Positions 55,047-64,000 of a DNA stretch of 64,000 nucleotides are shown one piece after another. The stretch spans positions 8,496,501 through 8,560,500 of the forward strand of contig NZ_CP128362.1 of the NCBI RefSeq assembly GCF_034274695.1, in the 5' to 3' direction. A model generated the notes under the pieces. The model made no database searches. It was not told the DNA's origin and saw nothing but the letters and a program-made list of their open reading frames with translations. Origin of the DNA: Chitinophaga sp. LS1. GTDB taxonomy: Bacteria; Bacteroidota; Bacteroidia; Chitinophagales; Chitinophagaceae. Both the position numbers and the translations under genes were made by a program. Every line of letters begins with the position of its first letter. Position 1 is the first letter of the stretch.

Positions 55047-56375
55047 TTACGGTCTGATCGCTTTAGCAATACTAAAATACAACCGCTGTGGCAAACGCAT
55101 ATTGCGGGTAATGACTACTGCTTTGGCTTTCAGACCGGTTTTATATTGCATCCTGATATGATGATTGGTTTCCAATCCGTTATTCAGGCGAATGGTGGCG
55201 ATGAAACCACTATCTGTAGCGACTTTGGAAACATAATTCAGCGTGCCAGGTACAAACCCAAACTCCTGATAAGGATAGGCATAAAACCTCAATTGTACCT
55301 GCAGACCTGTATCGATTTCACCGAAGTTATTTTGGGGTAAGTTTAATTGTGCATAGTATTGTGTACCTGTTGGATTGACATAACCCAATAGTTTCCCTGC
55401 CTGTAAAAACTGTTTATCCTGCAAAGGGACTACAAATGAAAGCACGCCATCAATAGGAGATTTAATCACATACTTCATTTCCCAATCTTCAATTGTGCTT
55501 CTAAATGTCTGTAATGATTGCTGAAATATAATGTTTTGTTGTGTCAGGTCATGTTCCAGCATATCTATTTCATTCTGCTTTTCCCGCTGCTGAATTTCAT
55601 TGGCCAGCATAGTGGTTTTTAACTGAGGGAGCAATAATCTTTTATTTACCAGTTTACTTTTTGCCTGACGTAAGTCTTCACGGGATAATACCTTCTCATT
55701 TAATAAAGAGTTATTCATATTAAATGATTCCTCTGCCAATTGTATATCCTCATTTGTCATCTTCTCCTGATTCAATAAGGAAGTATTAATTTGTTGAAGA
55801 GAGGAAATATCATTTTTCAGTAATTGCTTCTTGTGGTTATAAAAGCCGTTTACAAGGTAATCATTGTAAACCTGTAATGCGGTAATGAAGGTTTGATAGG
55901 CAGTCTGTAACTCGCCGAGATGATTATAATGCTTTTCGAATAACTTCGATACCTTGTTGGTACGGCCATCAGCCAATAAACGTAAGCTGCTATCGAGGCG
56001 AATAGAGAGATCAGCTACCGATGCATGATCAGCCGTGCTTTCAATCCAACCGATGACCTGGCCGGCGGCAACGATATCGTCGTTATGTCCCCATAAGCGA
56101 ATGAGCCGGCCTTCCTGTCGGGAAAAGATCTCCTTGGGGGCATCACTGGCTGTCAGGTAGGCACTCGCCTCTACCGTGTTAGGTGAATGAATAAACCAGG
56201 TAGATGCAAATAACAGGCATAGACCCGTTAAAAATATGATGACAGCCCATTTGTCCATGAAGTCCAGCTTCCTGTCTATGATCTCCTGCATAGCCTCTGA
56301 ACGGATCACTACCTCCTTTTTAGGTACGTGTCCATTTAATTGTGGCGGAGGTGTTGGTTGCGTTATTGTAGGCAT
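55047..56375 (-). CDS. HlyD-family membrane-fusion protein of peptide export
   Basis: A 442-residue adaptor. The start at 56375 (MPTITQPTPPP) is preferred; the frame runs to a TTG at 56402 inside the exporter gene. One membrane segment (WAVIIFLTGLCLLFASTWFI, near residue 55) is followed by a lipoyl-like half (GQVIGWIEST), a long coiled coil (residues about 150-280) and the second half with VIKSPIDGVLSFVVPLQD. It should link the C39 ABC exporter to an outer-membrane channel and is the last gene of the RiPP operon. Confidence 0.93.
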   Translation of the reverse strand: MPTITQPTPPPQLNGHVPKKEVVIRSEAMQEIIDRKLDFMDKWAVIIFLTGLCLLFASTWFIHSPNTVEASAYLTASDAPKEIFSRQEGRLIRLWGHNDDIVAAGQVIGWIESTADHASVADLSIRLDSSLRLLADGRTNKVSKLFEKHYNHLGELQTAYQTFITALQVYNDYLVNGFYNHKKQLLKNDISSLQQINTSLLNQEKMTNEDIQLAEESFNMNNSLLNEKVLSREDLRQAKSKLVNKRLLLPQLKTTMLANEIQQREKQNEIDMLEHDLTQQNIIFQQSLQTFRSTIEDWEMKYVIKSPIDGVLSFVVPLQDKQFLQAGKLLGYVNPTGTQYYAQLNLPQNNFGEIDTGLQVQLRFYAYPYQEFGFVPGTLNYVSKVATDSGFIATIRLNNGLETNHHIRMQYKTGLKAKAVVITRNMRLPQRLYFSIAKAIRP

Positions 56376-56385
56376 GCTGTTTTGA

Positions 56386-58572
56386 TTAATTGCCAAGTTC
56401 AAGCTGGTTCTTTACCAGCTCATAATATCTCCCTTTTATTGCAGACAGGTATTCATGTGAACCCTCTTCTACTATTCTTCCTTCATGTAGTACGATGATC
56501 TTATCTGCGTTCTTCACGGTGCTTAAACGGTGAGCGACGACCACTACGGTACGCCCGCGAAAAAACCTGTCCAGACTTGCTGTGATAATCTTTTCATTAT
56601 GCGCATCCAGTGCATTGGTAGCCTCGTCGAAGAAAAGATATTTCGGATCTTTGTAGAGTGCTCTCGCTATCAGTAATCTTTGTTTTTGACCCTGGCTCAG
56701 TCCAACGCCTTCCGCACCTAGTTGCGTATGGAAACCATTAGGGAGCGATTCTATGAAGGATAAGATGTTGGCTATTTTACAACATTGTACCAGTTTTTCG
56801 TAGACCATGAGCTCCTCTCCCACTGCTATATTGCCAGCGATCGTATCGTTGAAAATGAAACCGTCTTGCAGTACCGCCCCACATTGACTTCGCCAGAAAC
56901 CAGGACTGATGAATTTAAAGTTGCTATCCCCAATTTTGATATCACCATCGAACTGATGATAGAATTTCAGCAATAGTTTTAATAAAGTCGTTTTGCCACT
57001 ACCACTGGTACCTACGATGGCAGTGACCCTGCCTTCAGGGATCTCTAATGTGATATCTTTTAAGACGGGGAGATTGCCCGGTCCAGGGTAGGCAAAGGAG
57101 AGATCCTTAATATCTATCGTTTTGTTTTCCGGAAGATTGGCAATAAACATACTGTCAACAGGTTCCTCATCTTTCAGCTGGTGCACTTCCTGCAATCTTT
57201 CAAGGCTCATTTTGGCATCCTGTGCGTTTTGGACAAGACTAATGAATTGTTCCAGCGGACTATTGAGCTGACCTACTATGTACTGTACCGCCAGCATAGT
57301 ACCCAACGTAAGATTGCCTTCGATGACCATTTTTGCCACTAAAAAGGTGATCAAAATGTCTTTGGATTGGTTGATGAACATGGCCCCTGTCTGTTGCCAT
57401 TGTTGATAACTAAGGCTTTTGAGATTCAATTTGAATATGAGCGCCTGAATATTCTCCCACCCCCAACGCTTTTGTTGTTCTGCATTGTTTAGTTTAATCT
57501 CATGCATGCCCAGCACCAACTGAAGTGTCGTATTGTTTTCCTTTGCTGATAACTGAAAAGTTTCAAAGTTGAGTTTGCGGCGGATAGGCAGAAAGATACT
57601 GATCCAGAGAAAATACAATACACTGCCGGTAAGAAACACTTCGAATAACAACATGCTGAATGTAGCAAGGATGAATGCATATACAAAGAAATTAATCAAC
57701 GAGAACAAGGTATTGAGTGCCTGCCCGGTGAGGAAATTTTGTATCTGTTTATGATCTCCAATTCGCTGCAAGGTATCTCCCGTCTGGTGCGCATCAAAAT
57801 AGGAAATGGGCAACCGGCTTAATTTTATCCAAAAATCAGAGAGAATAGACAGGTTCAGGATGTTAGATACTTTCAACAACAACCGGCTACGAATAAAGTC
57901 GACTACTGTTTTGCTAAAGGTCAACATCAGTTGTGCTACCAATATCACCACGATGAATTCCATGTTCTGTGTGGTAATACCCGTATCTACAATGCTCTGT
58001 GTCAGAAAAGGGAAGACCAGTTGTAGCAATGCACCTACCAAGAGTGTGAGCATCACCTGCGTGATCTGCCAGCGATTCTGACGTAAATAGGGAAAAAGCG
58101 CCTTCCAGGTAAACTTCTTCTGCTCTTCTCCCGCATGTTCATAAAACGCAGGAGAAGGTTCTAATAGCAATGCGATCCCCGTCGTTTCTCCATCGCCATT
58201 TTTATGAGAGATCCAATGTTGCAGAAATTCCTGTTGTGTGAGCGTTTCAATACCACGGCCAGGATTCGCTATTTTTATACGCTTAGCCACACTTAATAAA
58301 ACAATGTAGTGGTTCTGATCCCAGTGCAATATACAAGGTAGGGTGACATGCTGTAAACGCTCATATGTCAATTGTACGCCACGGGTTCGAAACCCAATCT
58401 TCTCTGCTGCATCACTGATTCCAAAGAGCGTCACGCCTTGTCTGCCAAAGCCCGTCATCTGCCTGAGCGTATCCGCATTGTAATGGCGGCCATAGAACCT
58501 CGCTATCATGCGCAGACACGTAGGGCCACAATCCATTGCGTTTAGTTGCTTATAAAATACGAACGATTTCAA
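56386..58572 (-). CDS. C39-peptidase ABC exporter (PCAT) of the RiPP system
   Basis: A 728-residue peptidase-containing ABC transporter. The N-terminal C39 domain has the catalytic Cys in NAMDCGPTCLRM and His in LHWDQNHYIVLL. The third residue, normally Asp in a DP motif, is Asn (KIANPGRG). Six membrane segments follow (about 165-440), then the ATPase: Walker A GTSGSGKTTLL, signature GLSQGQKQRLL, Walker B LFFDEATNALD and H-loop AHRLSTV. It should cut precursors after the double glycine and export the core. It overlaps the SPASM gene by four bases. Confidence 0.95.
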   Translation of the reverse strand: MKSFVFYKQLNAMDCGPTCLRMIARFYGRHYNADTLRQMTGFGRQGVTLFGISDAAEKIGFRTRGVQLTYERLQHVTLPCILHWDQNHYIVLLSVAKRIKIANPGRGIETLTQQEFLQHWISHKNGDGETTGIALLLEPSPAFYEHAGEEQKKFTWKALFPYLRQNRWQITQVMLTLLVGALLQLVFPFLTQSIVDTGITTQNMEFIVVILVAQLMLTFSKTVVDFIRSRLLLKVSNILNLSILSDFWIKLSRLPISYFDAHQTGDTLQRIGDHKQIQNFLTGQALNTLFSLINFFVYAFILATFSMLLFEVFLTGSVLYFLWISIFLPIRRKLNFETFQLSAKENNTTLQLVLGMHEIKLNNAEQQKRWGWENIQALIFKLNLKSLSYQQWQQTGAMFINQSKDILITFLVAKMVIEGNLTLGTMLAVQYIVGQLNSPLEQFISLVQNAQDAKMSLERLQEVHQLKDEEPVDSMFIANLPENKTIDIKDLSFAYPGPGNLPVLKDITLEIPEGRVTAIVGTSGSGKTTLLKLLLKFYHQFDGDIKIGDSNFKFISPGFWRSQCGAVLQDGFIFNDTIAGNIAVGEELMVYEKLVQCCKIANILSFIESLPNGFHTQLGAEGVGLSQGQKQRLLIARALYKDPKYLFFDEATNALDAHNEKIITASLDRFFRGRTVVVVAHRLSTVKNADKIIVLHEGRIVEEGSHEYLSAIKGRYYELVKNQLELGN

Positions 58573-59603
58573 ATGCTGATGCTTGTTTGAGATAACTCAT
58601 AATTACCCACCCATTCTGCCAGGAATGGATCATATCCACATTTTGCAGGCTTACTATATATGTCTGCCTCATCTTGCCTGTAAGCCCTGCAATCTGTACA
58701 GATATATCGGAACTCACAGCTTTTGCAGGTGGTTACCTGATCTTTTGTAATAGACCAGATATCTTTGAATGTTTTGTCAGCCAGTGCCTGTGCCAATGTG
58801 GTGTCAGCGATATTTCCATATGACTGCTGCATGGAAGGACAGTTTTTAATATCCCCATTTGTATCAATGGAGATCTTCCTGTTCAGACAGCTATTAAAAG
58901 ATAATGCTTCCAGGAATTTTTTCTGGTTGCAGGAGAAGTTGAGTTTGTTGATCGTACCACAGCAGGTACTATTGGGAATAACCTTGTCCGTACCCATTAC
59001 CAATGGCGGGAATGCGGAAACATCCAGATCCGAAGGACAGGAATGCAGCACTATGGTGACCACACGCTTGTAGGTGTCTTGTATATGTTGCAGGGTTGCG
59101 GCGTTACAATATTGTTCATCGTAGGTTAATAACAAGTCGATGGATCTCACCATTGTGTTATTCACGCTTTCCAATATAGTAATGAGTTGCGCACAAGGAA
59201 TGGTATCAAAGCATCTTATCTCTACTGCTATACAACCCAGCTCATCGAGCTGAGAAAAAATCTTTTCGTAATCATGCCCGGATGTACTGTCGATATCAAC
59301 TATACAATTGGTGATCTCGTAAGGCATCTCCCATTGCTTGCTGATAGGTGGATAATATTCAGGATACTTTGTAAAGAAAGCAAACTCCTTATTGATCAGA
59401 AAGGAGATGTATTCATCAATGGTCTCATGTGCATCTACGGGGAAGTCTGCTTTGATCTCTTCTACTGAATGACCATCATAGCGGGTAATGAAGTCATACA
59501 ATGAGTTGGGAATAAATTCATAATTATTGCGCTGTACATCGCATATCACACTACGGCGTGCCCCTTTTACAGGCATACAACATTCAAAGAGTTTAATCTT
59601 CAT
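58569..59603 (-). CDS. gwsS: SPASM-domain peptide maturase of the grasp-with-spasm type
   Basis: A 344-residue protein. The C-terminal third has a SPASM cysteine pattern: Cys in SCLNRKISIDTNGD, then KNCPSMQQSYGNI, then TCKSCEFRYICTDC and KCGYDP, able to hold auxiliary Fe-S clusters. The N-terminal part looks like a worn radical-SAM barrel but has no CxxxCxxC motif, so SAM cleavage is not expected. This is the known state for SPASM partners of ATP-grasp peptide maturases. It probably assists precursor binding or modification. Confidence 0.88.
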   Translation of the reverse strand: MKIKLFECCMPVKGARRSVICDVQRNNYEFIPNSLYDFITRYDGHSVEEIKADFPVDAHETIDEYISFLINKEFAFFTKYPEYYPPISKQWEMPYEITNCIVDIDSTSGHDYEKIFSQLDELGCIAVEIRCFDTIPCAQLITILESVNNTMVRSIDLLLTYDEQYCNAATLQHIQDTYKRVVTIVLHSCPSDLDVSAFPPLVMGTDKVIPNSTCCGTINKLNFSCNQKKFLEALSFNSCLNRKISIDTNGDIKNCPSMQQSYGNIADTTLAQALADKTFKDIWSITKDQVTTCKSCEFRYICTDCRAYRQDEADIYSKPAKCGYDPFLAEWVGNYELSQTSISI

Positions 59604-59609
59604 AGTCAG

Positions 59610-59828
59610 TTATTTTTTCAGGAGATCATTTTCCCAATCTACTATCTGAGAGATGGGTTTAAAAAACGCCATGCAGGGATATTTTTCAGAATTATGCTTC
59701 CTGCTTTTTTCAAATCTTATGTGGTAAGAGTTGGACTGGCTCACAAAATATACGGATACGGGAATCCTTGTTCTCTCTGCCGGGTTAAGTGCATTGAGGT
59801 AAGCGGTTACATTTTTTTCTTCTGCCAT
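59610..59828 (-). CDS. Unassigned 72-residue protein of the RiPP operon
   Basis: A small protein beginning MAEEKNVTAYLNALNPAERT and ending IVDWENDLLKK. It is three bases from the ATP-grasp stop and six from the SPASM start, so clearly part of the operon. It has no signal, no membrane segment and no double glycine; the middle (RIPVSVYFVSQSNSYHIRFE) looks like beta strands. It is not a precursor. Inference: a leader-recognition or scaffold protein for the maturases. Confidence 0.75.
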   Translation of the reverse strand: MAEEKNVTAYLNALNPAERTRIPVSVYFVSQSNSYHIRFEKSRKHNSEKYPCMAFFKPISQIVDWENDLLKK

Positions 59829-59831
59829 TGG

Positions 59832-60857
59832 TTAATTTTTTAAAGGAATCAGGTCACTTTCTATCAGACTGGTGGCAACTATTTTCTCGAGTTGGTAATT
59901 GCAGGGTTCAGAGACCATTCCAAATTGTCCGCCATGGTTGACTTCGAGGAAGACAAACTTGCCATCTGTCGTGAGGATGATATCCAGGGAACCGGTATTT
60001 AAACCCAGGTCATTCATCAGCACAACAATCCTGGCAGCGAGATCATCGGGGATTTTGAACGGCACATTGCGGTTAGGTGTTTGGATGTTGTATTTACGGA
60101 AATCAATACTGGTTTGTTTATCCAAAGTTGAAAAGATGGCCATGGGATAACATTTACCTTCGAGATAATACACGCGTAATTCCACATCCTTTTCCACCAT
60201 TTCCTGGAAAGAGGAAGGATAAAAATGATCAGGCAAATTGTTGATGACTTCTTCTGATACTATTTCAGTAAATCCGGCCAGCAGCTCTCCGCTAAAATTA
60301 AATAGTCCGGCTTCGCTCATGGCTTTTACAATTATTCTTTTATGATGGCTGAGGTAAAAATTGTACAATTCCTCTCTTGAGCTGGTAATAATAGTATCAG
60401 GAATATCTATACCTGCCTTCTTTGCAGCTAGTAATTGTTGATATTTAGATGGGTTCTTTTTCAGGTGGTTGGGAGAACCAATGATCTTCTTGTTTTTAAT
60501 CTGGCTGAAGAATATCTCGCTGATGATCTTAAACTCTTCCGTTCTGAATTCATTAATATCCTCTTCAAACTTCTTTTCTTCAAGTGGAGAAATCTTTGGA
60601 AAAGTAGCATGAAACGACCAGCGCCGATACCAAATTGCATTGATATCGGCGAGGTTCAACTGTCTGCCGTTATAAGTGATTAAAGGTTGTTCAGCAGGAT
60701 GATGTTCATTCCCGATTTCAATATTTATGCGATGCAGGCTGTTTTCTACCAGGTCATTCCCATTGATGCGGATGAAATTTGCTTTTAAATAGAAAAGCCA
60801 GTCCATTACAATTTCCGTGGTAAACTCAAAACTAGCATGGCTTATAACCAATATCAT
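59832..60857 (-). CDS. gwsG: ATP-grasp peptide maturase (graspetide ligase)
   Basis: A 341-residue ATP-grasp ligase of the microviridin/graspetide type. Family features are the pre-grasp region (NAIWYRRWSF), substrate and ATP lysines (KKIIGSPNHLKKNPSKYQQL, RIIVKAMSEAGLF), the acidic segment QEMVEKDVELRVYYL and the metal-binding end LDIILTTDGKFVFLEVNHG. It would make ester (or amide) links between Asp/Glu side chains and Thr/Ser (or Lys) of the core peptide. The adjacent precursors with Thr/Ser and Asp-rich cores fit. Confidence 0.93.
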   Translation of the reverse strand: MILVISHASFEFTTEIVMDWLFYLKANFIRINGNDLVENSLHRINIEIGNEHHPAEQPLITYNGRQLNLADINAIWYRRWSFHATFPKISPLEEKKFEEDINEFRTEEFKIISEIFFSQIKNKKIIGSPNHLKKNPSKYQQLLAAKKAGIDIPDTIITSSREELYNFYLSHHKRIIVKAMSEAGLFNFSGELLAGFTEIVSEEVINNLPDHFYPSSFQEMVEKDVELRVYYLEGKCYPMAIFSTLDKQTSIDFRKYNIQTPNRNVPFKIPDDLAARIVVLMNDLGLNTGSLDIILTTDGKFVFLEVNHGGQFGMVSEPCNYQLEKIVATSLIESDLIPLKN

Positions 60858-60868
60858 CTGATAAGTTA

Positions 60869-61840
60869 TTAGTGGTTATTCAATAGTTTCATCATTTGGA
60901 GGTATTCTTCTATTGGTACCAGACCTACTTCTTTTCTGCGCTGGTTCAGGTTGGCTTCATCTTCGACGGGCCATATTCCTGATTCTACTTTTATTTTTCC
61001 GGTACTATCTCTCGTGGTGATATAATTCATTTGCGTACCGTACAACTGTTTTTCGCCAGTGTTCTTTCTTACACGATCTGTGAGGTAAGCATAGTCTTTG
61101 GCACTGGCTTCATTCATGTCAACGGCTACCTTCATTTTCCGGAGGTATTCTTTTTGAAATGCGGTGTCGAAGTCAGCATGTTGAGCTATGATCCAGGAGA
61201 TGTGTGCGGCTTCTTTGCCGATATCGCTTTTCCACAGATATCCGTCTTTGGCAAACAATTGCTTCAGGTAATCCACATTTTTCCGGAAGGTATTATCCTG
61301 TAAAGAGTCTATTGCTTTATCAGTATACTGTGGATAAGCACCTGCATATCTTCTTTTGAAAGTACCTATACGCTGGTACTTTTGGTCGATATAAAAAAGG
61401 TAGTCCAACTGCTTTGCTACTTTTTCATTCGTGATGCTATTTGTTTTGCAATAATCCGTGAATCGGGCGTCAAGTTCTTTTATTAAGGTTTTCCATTTAG
61501 CGCTACCATGGAGTTTTTCAAACTCTGCTGTATAACGGATAAAGTCCGCCTGTCTATAGCCGGAGTCTATGATAGCAAAGAGTAAATGGAAGGTACTGTC
61601 CGTCTTGCCATTCGCCATAAAACCAATTGCCAGGTTAAAGAGGACTTCCGGATCATGATGTTTTATCTCAGCGAGTTGCTGATAGGATTGAATACTCTTT
61701 TTAAAATCTCCCCTGAAATAGGCTGCATCCCCTTCTTTGATAAGGTTTTGAGCCTGCAGATCATTATCCAATAAAATTAATCGCTGTCCTGATAATAACT
61801 GTGACATAAGCATGCCTGTAAAAAGCAATATTGCCTTCAT
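60869..61840 (-). CDS. Secreted TPR/DUF6624-like protein of the RiPP operon
   Basis: A 323-residue protein from the start at 61840 (MKAILLFTGMLMSQLLSGQ, a signal peptide). Residues about 30-100 hold TPR-like helices (GDAAYFRGDFKKSIQSYQQL, PEVLFNLAIGFMANG). The rest resembles DUF6624, with DYLFYIDQKYQR, HISWIIAQHADFD and LTDRVRKNTGEKQLYGTQM. Such proteins are often found with grasp-with-spasm genes; the role is unknown, perhaps handling or immunity in the periplasm. It lies between the precursors and the maturase gene. Confidence 0.8.
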   Translation of the reverse strand: MKAILLFTGMLMSQLLSGQRLILLDNDLQAQNLIKEGDAAYFRGDFKKSIQSYQQLAEIKHHDPEVLFNLAIGFMANGKTDSTFHLLFAIIDSGYRQADFIRYTAEFEKLHGSAKWKTLIKELDARFTDYCKTNSITNEKVAKQLDYLFYIDQKYQRIGTFKRRYAGAYPQYTDKAIDSLQDNTFRKNVDYLKQLFAKDGYLWKSDIGKEAAHISWIIAQHADFDTAFQKEYLRKMKVAVDMNEASAKDYAYLTDRVRKNTGEKQLYGTQMNYITTRDSTGKIKVESGIWPVEDEANLNQRRKEVGLVPIEEYLQMMKLLNNH

Positions 61841-61894
61841 TATAAGATATTTGGAAGGGCAGGTCATAGTAACCCACCCTTCTGTTTAAAGATA

Positions 61895-62059
61895 TCAATC
61901 ACCATCAGCGTCATCATAATCCTGAGCAGTAGATGCACCGAGATCTGTAGAGTGTGGCAATGTGCCTGTTAAAGTTGGGGCAGCACTGCCACCATGCAAA
62001 CAAAGCATTTCTTCTCTTGTGAGACACTTCTCCTGTGGAGTGAGTTTTTCGAGTTTCAT
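61895..62059 (-). CDS. Graspetide precursor peptide A
   Basis: 54 residues. The leader MKLEKLTPQEKCLTREEM continues LCLHGG and fits the double-glycine (LSxEELxxIxGG) type. The core begins SAAPTLTGTLPH and ends STDLGASTAQDYDDADGD. Thr/Ser residues precede an Asp-rich tail, as needed for ester cross-linking. It is the precursor gene nearest to the maturases. A ribosome site (AATTTCC complement region) precedes it. The gene is intact. Confidence 0.9.
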   Translation of the reverse strand: MKLEKLTPQEKCLTREEMLCLHGGSAAPTLTGTLPHSTDLGASTAQDYDDADGD

Positions 62060-62080
62060 GGAAATTGGGATTAAAAGTTA

Positions 62081-62241
62081 TTAATTGTCTGCATCATCAT
62101 AGTCCTGGACTGTCGATGCGCCGACGTTAGTGAAGTGGGCTTTCGTACCCGTTAATGATGGTGCGAGGATACCTCCATACAGGGAAAGCATTTCCTCTCT
62201 TTTGAAGGATTTCTCCTGAGGAGTGAGTTTTCCAGTTGCAT
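62081..62241 (-). pseudogene. Graspetide precursor B, frameshifted in the leader
   Basis: The start at 62241 reads MQLEN and then leaves frame. In the correct frame the sequence continues KLTPQEKSFKREEM, LSLYGG and the core ILAPSLTGTKAHFTNVGAST, ending VQDYDDADN. One T is missing from the TTTT run at 62228-62231 (the intact copies have five). No other start codon exists in the right frame, so it is silent unless the read is wrong or the ribosome slips. Confidence 0.85.
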
Positions 62242-62264
62242 GCGAGGTTGACTAATTATTGTGA

Positions 62265-62429
62265 TCAATCACCATCAGCGTCATCGTAATCATCAGCTGT
62301 AGATGTGCCGAGGTCTGTGCTATGCCAGTTTGTACCTGTTAAGGTTGGATTGACGTTACCACCGTGCAAACAAAGCATTTCTTCTCTTGTGAGTGATTTC
62401 TCCTGTGGAGTGAGTTTTTCGAGTTTCAT
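62265..62429 (-). CDS. Graspetide precursor peptide C
   Basis: 54 residues, closest to peptide A: leader MKLEKLTPQEKSLTREEM then LCLHGG; core starts NVNPTLTGTNWH and ends STDLGTSTADDYDDADGD. Intact start and frame. The conserved part is the TxTGT and STDLG.ST blocks and the acidic tail; the variable part is the three residues after the double glycine and the two before HST. Confidence 0.9.
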   Translation of the reverse strand: MKLEKLTPQEKSLTREEMLCLHGGNVNPTLTGTNWHSTDLGTSTADDYDDADGD

Positions 62430-62461
62430 AAAAACTGGTTTAAATGGTTAATAAAAAAAGA

Positions 62462-62619
62462 CTAAGATTGTTGATCATTGTCTGCATCATCATTAGATGC
62501 GCCGAGATCTGTTGTGTGCCCTTGTGTGCCGGTAAAGAATGCAGAAAGGCCACCGCTCAGTGTGAGCAGCTGTTCGCGAGAAAGGGTTTTCTCCTGGGAA
62601 GTGATTTTTAGAGACTCAT
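62462..62619 (-). pseudogene. Graspetide precursor D, frameshifted at the start
   Basis: The only ATG (62619) reads M S L then stop. In another frame the leader SLKITSQEKTLSREQLLTL with SGG and the core LSAFFTGTQGHTTDLGAS, ending NDDADNDQQS, are intact. One A is missing after ATGA (expected ATGAAG). The tail differs from A, B and C: DYDD is replaced by NDD and a QQS end is added. No start lies in the correct frame. Confidence 0.82.
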
Positions 62620-62648
62620 AATAATTGGGTTAAGTGATTAAAAAAAGA

Positions 62649-62801
62649 TTAGTCAGCATCGTCGTAATCTATTGCTTCCTCCGTTCCGGTAAGATGTGCG
62701 GCACGGGTGAAGGTCTGCGAAGGCGTATTGCCACCTGCTAATGCAAGCATTTGTTCCCTGCTAAGAGTTTCATCAGAAGGGTTGAGTTTTTCCAGTTTCA
62801 T
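62649..62801 (-). CDS. Graspetide precursor peptide E
   Basis: 50 residues: leader MKLEKLNPSDETLSREQM then LALAGG; core NTPSQTFTRAAHLTGTEEA and tail IDYDDAD. The frame and start are intact. It keeps the leader pattern and acidic tail but lacks the STDLGAST block, so its cross-link pattern may differ from A and C. Confidence 0.88.
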   Translation of the reverse strand: MKLEKLNPSDETLSREQMLALAGGNTPSQTFTRAAHLTGTEEAIDYDDAD

Positions 62802-62936
62802 ACTTTTTGTTATTTAAATGATGAAGATCCAGGCATGACCGTTCTGTTCTCAATAATTATTGAGAATAAAGCAAAGCATAAATGTCCACTCCCAATATTC
62901 GTTATAGAGAAAGTAAAAGTAGATGATCACTATTTA

Positions 62937-63057
62937 TCAGTCTGCGTACTGATCATCCCTACTAATGGCTGTAAATGATCCGAGATCCTTGTTATACGCG
63001 CCTTTGGTGGTAAAGTATTAAACATTCTTTGGTGGGGGGAAGTTTCTCACGTTGCAT
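62937..63057 (-). pseudogene. Decayed graspetide precursor F
   Basis: The start at 63057 reads MQREKLPPTKE, like a leader, and then loses the frame. Nearer the end another frame reads NKDLGSFTAISRDDQYAD then stop, clearly related to the STDLGAST...DYDDAD tail. The double glycine is destroyed. It is an old, dead copy in the array. Confidence 0.7.
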
Positions 63058-63123
63058 GGACATTGGATTAGCTAAAGTTAACTAAAATAGAACATTCTTA
63101 AAAGCGACCTTATATTAATGGCA

Positions 63124-63285
63124 TCAATCTGAATCGTTGTCCTCATAATCTGTTGATGCAGATGCTCCGGGATCTATGCCGGTAGGGCCTGATAATGTTG
63201 ATGAAGGAGCATTTCCTCCCTGCACAGTTAATAATTGGTCTCTAGTAAGGTTATTTCCCTGAGCTACGATTTTTTCGAGTTGCAT
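63124..63285 (-). CDS. Graspetide precursor peptide G
   Basis: 53 residues from the start at 63285 (the frame is open 19 codons further but without a leader pattern). Leader MQLEKIVAQGNNLTRDQL then LTVQGG; core NAPSSTLSGPTGIDPGAS with tail ASTDYEDNDSD. It is the first precursor of the array in the direction of transcription and the most divergent of the intact ones. Confidence 0.88.
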   Translation of the reverse strand: MQLEKIVAQGNNLTRDQLLTVQGGNAPSSTLSGPTGIDPGASASTDYEDNDSD

Positions 63286-63375
63286 AGAACAGTGGGTTAA
63301 GGTTACCGAATTTAAAAAAAATTCCTGTAGAAATAACATCAATTTTTATGAAAATAATATTTTAAGGACTTTTTA

Positions 63376-64000
63376 ATGACGTCGGCCGACTCTGCCATTT
63401 TTTCGATTTTGACTGATGAAGATTTTAACAACCCTGCTATTGGCGTTGCAAATTCATTTATTGAAATTATTCCAGGGCACTTTTTCCTGAATAATGTAGC
63501 GGAAATCATTAAGGATGAAATTCTGGCGAATGGCTGCGTGCCGTTTGAATTCAACACGATCGGTGTTGACGACGGTATTGCGATGGGGCATGAAGGTATG
63601 TTGTATTCATTGCTGAGTAGAAAACTGATTGCGAGTTCGGTGGAGAGTGTGATGAATGCACATAAAACGGATGCAATGATCGCGATTCCTAATTGTGATG
63701 AAATTGTGCCAGGCATGATCATGGATTCACTCAGGGTGACTATACCTACTATGTTTGTGAGCAGTGGACCTATGGCGAAAGGGTATAAAAAAGATGGTAC
63801 TCCTATCGATATGGCTACTGCTTTTGAAGCGGAGGAAAACATACAGCAGGGATACTGTGTGTAATGCCTGTCCCAGTGGTGGTAGTTGTTCCGGTATGTT
63901 TACAGCGAACTCTATGAATACGCTGATGGAAGTGATGGGTATTGCGCTGCCAGGGAATGGAACGATACTCACGCAAACACCTGAACGGGAAGCATTGTTA
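63376..64000 (+). pseudogene. ilvD: ilvD-like dihydroxy-acid dehydratase, N-truncated and frameshifted, cut by window edge
   Basis: The frame 63376-63864 reads like the first part of the E. coli-type enzyme (IAVANSF-like [51 protein letters not shown]). It stops at 63864. The homologous sequence continues in the next frame as [18 protein letters not shown] and [14 protein letters not shown] to the window end. The usual first 20-30 residues (with GR.MAGAR) are missing. The CDK motif reads CDE, and CPTCGSC reads CPSGGSC, so cluster-binding or catalytic residues are changed. It is probably dead; a functional copy should exist elsewhere. Confidence 0.75.

Follow-up and report, generated by a model that had tools for sequence, protein, structure and literature searches.

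A multi-copy graspetide-type precursor array with intact and decaying copies in a grasp-with-spasm operon of Chitinophaga sp. LS1

The genome of Chitinophaga sp. LS1 (8.67 Mb, one contig, NZ_CP128362.1) carries seven related short precursor genes, A to G, immediately ahead of genes for an ATP-grasp peptide ligase (GwsG), a SPASM protein (GwsS) and a C39 peptidase exporter. We analysed them within a window of 64,000 nucleotides (G000:C1:8496501-8560500), and positions below refer to that window unless a contig is named. The locus is very probably an operon that makes and exports graspetides and draws its precursors from a multi-copy array whose copies are born and die. The step that we assign to GwsS, taken alone, has about an even chance of being right.

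Precursor array

The seven units run head to tail on the minus strand, with a spacing of ~185 bases over A to E and a wider one around F (Table 1). Their coordinates and states as given by an earlier sequence-only reading of this DNA, with four copies intact, two frame-broken and one a remnant, agree with the sequence. Each intact precursor consists of a 24-residue leader ending in double glycine (GG) and a Thr/Ser-rich core of 26 to 30 residues with a terminal Asp cluster. Each of the four intact cores contains 6 to 9 Thr/Ser and 6 to 7 Asp/Glu residues and is devoid of Lys and Cys, so ester links would be expected. The calculated [M+H]+ values of the cores before any modification are 2963.302 (A), 3168.315 (C), 2839.265 (E) and 2841.182 (G). 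GG leaders, Thr/Ser donors and Asp/Glu acceptors in the core and an adjoining ATP-grasp ligase are the features sought in a graspetide precursor, and all are found here. The assignment of these genes to a grasp-with-spasm operon is likewise supported: the TIGR04192 and TIGR04193 cut-offs are passed and GwsG is homologous to graspetide ligases. None of the NCBIfam and Pfam models reached its cut-off against the precursors, in keeping with the suggestion that this precursor set is undescribed. The search against the GG-Bacteroidales precursor model TIGR04149 that had been recommended did not recover them, only copy E matching at E<=1 (13.7 bits, cut-off 25), and the PFFARFL-type motif of microviridins and chryseoviridins is absent from the leaders as read.

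A whole-genome protein search with A (E up to 10) found six places, all inside the array, with E from 1e-32 to 5.7e-7. At the DNA level, F aligned with its best sister at a local score of 48, a value reached by none of 500 dinucleotide shuffles, and the aligned portion comprises the spacer and the start of the leader. B scored 144 and D 112, whereas the top scores among 200 shuffles were 36 and 35. Another genome of the same species, [Flexibacter] sp. ATCC 35208 (L053, taken as one genome with the match in G086), is 99.48% identical over 14,179 alignment columns, with 60 mismatches and 14 gaps. None of the gap positions lies inside the array, where the two genomes do not differ in length. Sequencing error was ruled out as the source of the frame breaks, since two genomes of the species carry the same ones.

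When 5.8 billion proteins were searched with a profile, 13 matched at E<=0.1, four of them the array's own. By our assignment to shared contigs, the other nine would lie on contigs of length 27,763 (four matches; Chitinophaga sp., NCBI), 21,090 (four) and 1,332 (one). A FastTree tree unites B with P0006 and P0008, places D beside P0009 and joins G to P0012, P0013 and P0014; B, D and G thus have orthologues on other contigs, those of B and D intact, and D lacks some core residues that P0009 retains. Because each groups with relatives from other contigs, the lineages of B, D and G had separated before the species split. Moreover, the nonsynonymous divergence (dN) is below the synonymous divergence (dS) in 15 of 15 pairs (pairwise Nei-Gojobori; dS saturated in six). 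Shared breaks, orthologues on other contigs and dN below dS together point to a precursor family that is selectively kept while copies are born and lost. Tandem duplication, as proposed earlier, is supported. The array would have grown in this way. The lineages of B, D and G, at the least, predate the species, within which B and D would have lost their start frames and F would have nearly disappeared.

The claim that the leaders are alike and the cores vary is true of A and C, for which dN is 0.13 and dS 0.68, with a leader dN of 0.02 and a core dN of 0.24. It does not extend to diversifying selection: the core motifs LTGT and DYDDAD are among the best-conserved parts of the precursors, and since these are well kept and dN stays below dS throughout, there is no sign of positive selection for diversity.

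In the mechanism that we propose, GwsS would use its RRE-like N-terminal domain to bind the leader, and would present the peptide. GwsG would then spend ATP on forming esters between the hydroxyls of core Thr/Ser and the carboxyls of Asp/Glu. The C39 domain would then cut after GG and the ABC/HlyD pair would export several sister peptides; cleavage and export are suggested by the presence of the C39-ABC gene and by the usual roles of that family. The array, its breaks and relatives, the gene order, the family identities and the missing radical SAM motif were read from the sequence, and the RRE-like domain from a structural model.

SPASM protein

GwsS scores above the cut-off of TIGR04085 (34.7 bits, cut-off 27), but the S-adenosylmethionine (AdoMet)-cluster motif CX3CX2C is missing from it. 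Of its 2766 database relatives at E<=1e-10, the 120 listed, including the same-species P0015, were read for the motif, and none has it; nor does any of the 43 relatives from loci, a set that includes L053 and the duplicate L057. Pfam gave no radical SAM match at E<=0.01 for any of the 53 aligned members (the window's protein and 52 of the 120 listed). Six proteins of this genome match the SPASM profile, and GwsS alone lacks the motif; the other five, four above the cut-off and one below, possess it. The eight SPASM cysteines are invariant in all 53 aligned proteins, and the distant locus relatives L108, L110 and L117 are without most of them. Outside the SPASM region, C9 is present in all 53 and C21 and C124 in 52 each, and two of the three lie in the N-terminal domain. 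In a confident model, residues 1-83 are predicted to adopt an RRE-like, PqqD-like winged-helix fold.

On these features, GwsS most likely binds the leader and serves as a partner to the ligase, and the ordinary radical SAM role that is usual in print is not supported by the sequences. Whether the grasp-with-spasm SPASM protein in general would be such a partner, built from an RRE, a barrel that has lost the AdoMet cluster and a SPASM domain that keeps its Fe-S ligands, seems to us an evenly poised question. An unlikely alternative, yet the best of those considered, is that GwsS is an active maturase adding a second modification, so that esters would not be the only modification of the products. 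Makarova et al. (2022, PMC8939145) name the SPASM protein a radical SAM enzyme and propose thioether or carbon bonds. The conserved cysteines just described would suit such an activity, and the five Foldseek matches of GwsS at E<=0.001 are all radical SAM/SPASM maturase entries. It is difficult to reconcile, however, with the consistent absence of the motif and of a Pfam match among the relatives, with the singular position of GwsS among the SPASM-profile proteins of its own genome, and with four intact cores that offer no Cys. TigE (PDB 8vpo), a radical SAM enzyme, differs from GwsS in this very respect, the AdoMet-cluster cysteines being absent from GwsS.

The rosaritide pair MirB/MirC provides a precedent for GwsS as a ligase partner. 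As described by Carter et al. (2026, PMC13097080), the ligase there needs MirC for modification, and the N-domain of MirC weakly resembles an RRE. MirC differs in being described as peptidyl-prolyl isomerase/chaperone-like and not as a SPASM protein.

If GwsS is a leader-binding partner, its family would make partner-dependent graspetides without radical chemistry, and its auxiliary clusters would serve structure, electron transfer or redox sensing. This would shift the chemistry to be expected in a large, little-characterised group of Bacteroidetes graspetides, perhaps with no extra radical modification and with GwsS needed as a partner, and could explain how leaders lacking the motif of other graspetides are recognised. 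We met neither such a reading of the SPASM protein nor any Chitinophaga graspetide in the open-licence literature searched.

Fate of the broken copies

Copy B could be alive, expressed with the help of slippage or of length changes close to its start, which would make its production switchable. Its core frame is indeed open to the stop, and the break amounts to one base in length near the start; but the length there is the same in both genomes of the species, and decay is the simpler account because D carries further damage. We regard a living B as very improbable. That these frames arose by chance or are repeats without coding function, as the failure of the precursors to reach any library model might suggest, is scarcely credible when dN is below dS in every pair, intact relatives exist on other contigs and the array sits just ahead of the maturation genes.

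Several observations weigh against an operon fed by an array with copy turnover. Of 79 same-genus genomes, only G000 and G086, which belong to one species, give strong precursor matches, and five further ones match only at E 0.005-0.09; the family is narrowly spread. A and C pair in the tree with a support of 0.58, and no relative of either is placed before the species split. The pairing of P0004-P0009 and P0012-P0014 with a GwsG is assumed. Ahead of G, a Bacteroidetes promoter pattern was sought and not found, and sigma-70-like sites are no commoner than in shuffles (20 against a mean of 24).

Relation to known systems

Makarova et al. (2022) describe several diverse GG precursors per locus, together with SPASM and LPL proteins, in ATP-grasp branch 5 of Bacteroidetes. 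Ligase matches of about 158 bits and up from the 79 genomes were taken as loci, and we counted precursor-like open reading frames (ORFs) at 42 related loci, 39 from the same genus and 3 others, having dropped L033 and L053 (both this species) and L057 (Chitinophaga polysaccharea, the same place as L039). The count is 0 in 7 loci, 1 in 14, 2 in 12, 3 in 3 and 5 in 6, so that 21 of the 42 have at least two; the present locus counts 4 under the same rule, which is mechanical (GG, length, distance) and also admits some chance frames, for example the third one of L043. Among the loci that count 0 (L036, L054, L055, L100-L102 and L110), some have non-GG or differently placed candidates. The copy number is unexceptional, since six related loci exceed it and tandem precursor duplications have already been described for chryseoviridin loci (PMC8939145); the suggestion that it was without description is not supported. 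Multi-precursor grasp/SPASM loci are a known and frequent kind, and this array belongs there.

The operon resembles branch 5 in its ATP-grasp ligase, its TIGR04193 SPASM protein, the small LPL protein encoded immediately ahead of the SPASM gene, a possible cluster 23 protein and its several different GG precursors. The LPL-type protein was recognised by its position, its likeness to the published family being judged by motif only. What sets the operon apart is its precursor family and its decayed copies, the word pseudogene being absent from the main text of PMC8939145, besides the radical SAM label that this paper gives to the SPASM protein. With the chryseoviridin loci it shares a homologous ligase (CdnC, PDB 7mgv) and tandem precursor duplications, but the array has no PFFARFL leader motif and the operon includes a SPASM protein. 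Group 14 among the graspetides of Carter et al. offers a likeness, a peptidase-type exporter being common in it; as a difference, DUF6624 is reported in PMC13097080 for groups 18, 20, 23 and 42. According to PMC8939145, all graspetides characterised by then were protease inhibitors. The array presents a case of precursor copies decaying in one species with their counterparts still intact elsewhere, and it provides several sister cores for one ligase.

Other operon genes and neighbouring sequence

After the array, on the same strand and with small gaps or overlaps, follow the genes for a DUF6624 protein, GwsG, a 72-aa protein, GwsS, the C39-ABC exporter and an HlyD-family adaptor (Table 1). The ligase, SPASM protein and exporter had been listed in the sequence-only reading, which did not include the DUF6624, 72-aa and HlyD genes.

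Table 1. Features of the precursor array and operon, with positions in the window
Feature	Position	Strand	Remarks
Precursor G	63124..63285	-	intact, first in operon; groups with P0012, P0013 and P0014 (support 1.0)
Precursor F	about 62925..63061	-	remnant; DNA-level match, missed by protein profile
Precursor E	62649..62801	-	intact, shortest core; found by protein search
Precursor D	62461..about 62619	-	out-of-frame start, core frame open, core shortened; intact relative P0009
Precursor C	62265..62429	-	intact; found by protein search
Precursor B	62081..about 62250	-	out-of-frame start, core frame open; intact relatives P0006 and P0008
Precursor A	61895..62059	-	intact
DUF6624 protein	60869..61867	-	PF20329 62.2 bits, cut-off 27
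GwsG, ATP-grasp peptide ligase	59832..60857	-	TIGR04192 267 bits, cut-off 230
72-aa protein in LPL position	59610..59828	-	in the ligase-SPASM gap; position and motifs IPV, FKPIS
GwsS, SPASM protein	58569..59603	-	TIGR04193 319 bits, cut-off 175; RRE-like domain 1-83 (predicted), barrel, SPASM
C39 peptidase-ABC exporter	56386..58572	-	PF03412 107.9 bits, PF00664, PF00005
HlyD-family adaptor	55047..56402	-	PF13437 37 bits, cut-off 22.2

Among solved ligases of graspetide type, AMdnB, CdnC and chains 5ig8/5ig9 can be aligned with GwsG; 9bou aligns more weakly. The DUF6624 protein is perhaps of the cluster 23 type of PMC8939145. A small ORF occupies the LPL position in all 44 loci that have both genes, and 41 of the 44 show an [LIV]P-hydrophobic motif; a PqqD-like fold for the LPL protein was set aside, the model being too poor (predicted local distance difference test score 62.7, five sequences). 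The C39 domain of the exporter reads ANP where the relative L055 has ADP. The usual catalytic Asp of the domain may be Asn in this exporter.

At 63286-63342 the frame of precursor G stays open 5' of its ATG, and P0012 and P0013 show a similar extension, which could reflect a start further upstream or conservation of the region before the gene. Beyond it, from 63376 to 64000 and on to about G000:C1 8561250, lies a degraded ilvD (dihydroxy-acid dehydratase) gene running away from the array, and a full-length ilvD is found at G000:C1:3404413-3406029. Bad assembly, of which a broken ilvD beside the array might be a sign, was ruled out by the full-length copy and by degradation of the neighbour at several points. 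A second ATP-grasp ligase gene (L002, G000:C1:8581474-8582217), a distant relative with 28% identity, lies ~24 kb from the array; just upstream of it is a 113-aa Thr/Ser/Asp-rich ORF, and the two are perhaps a second graspetide locus.
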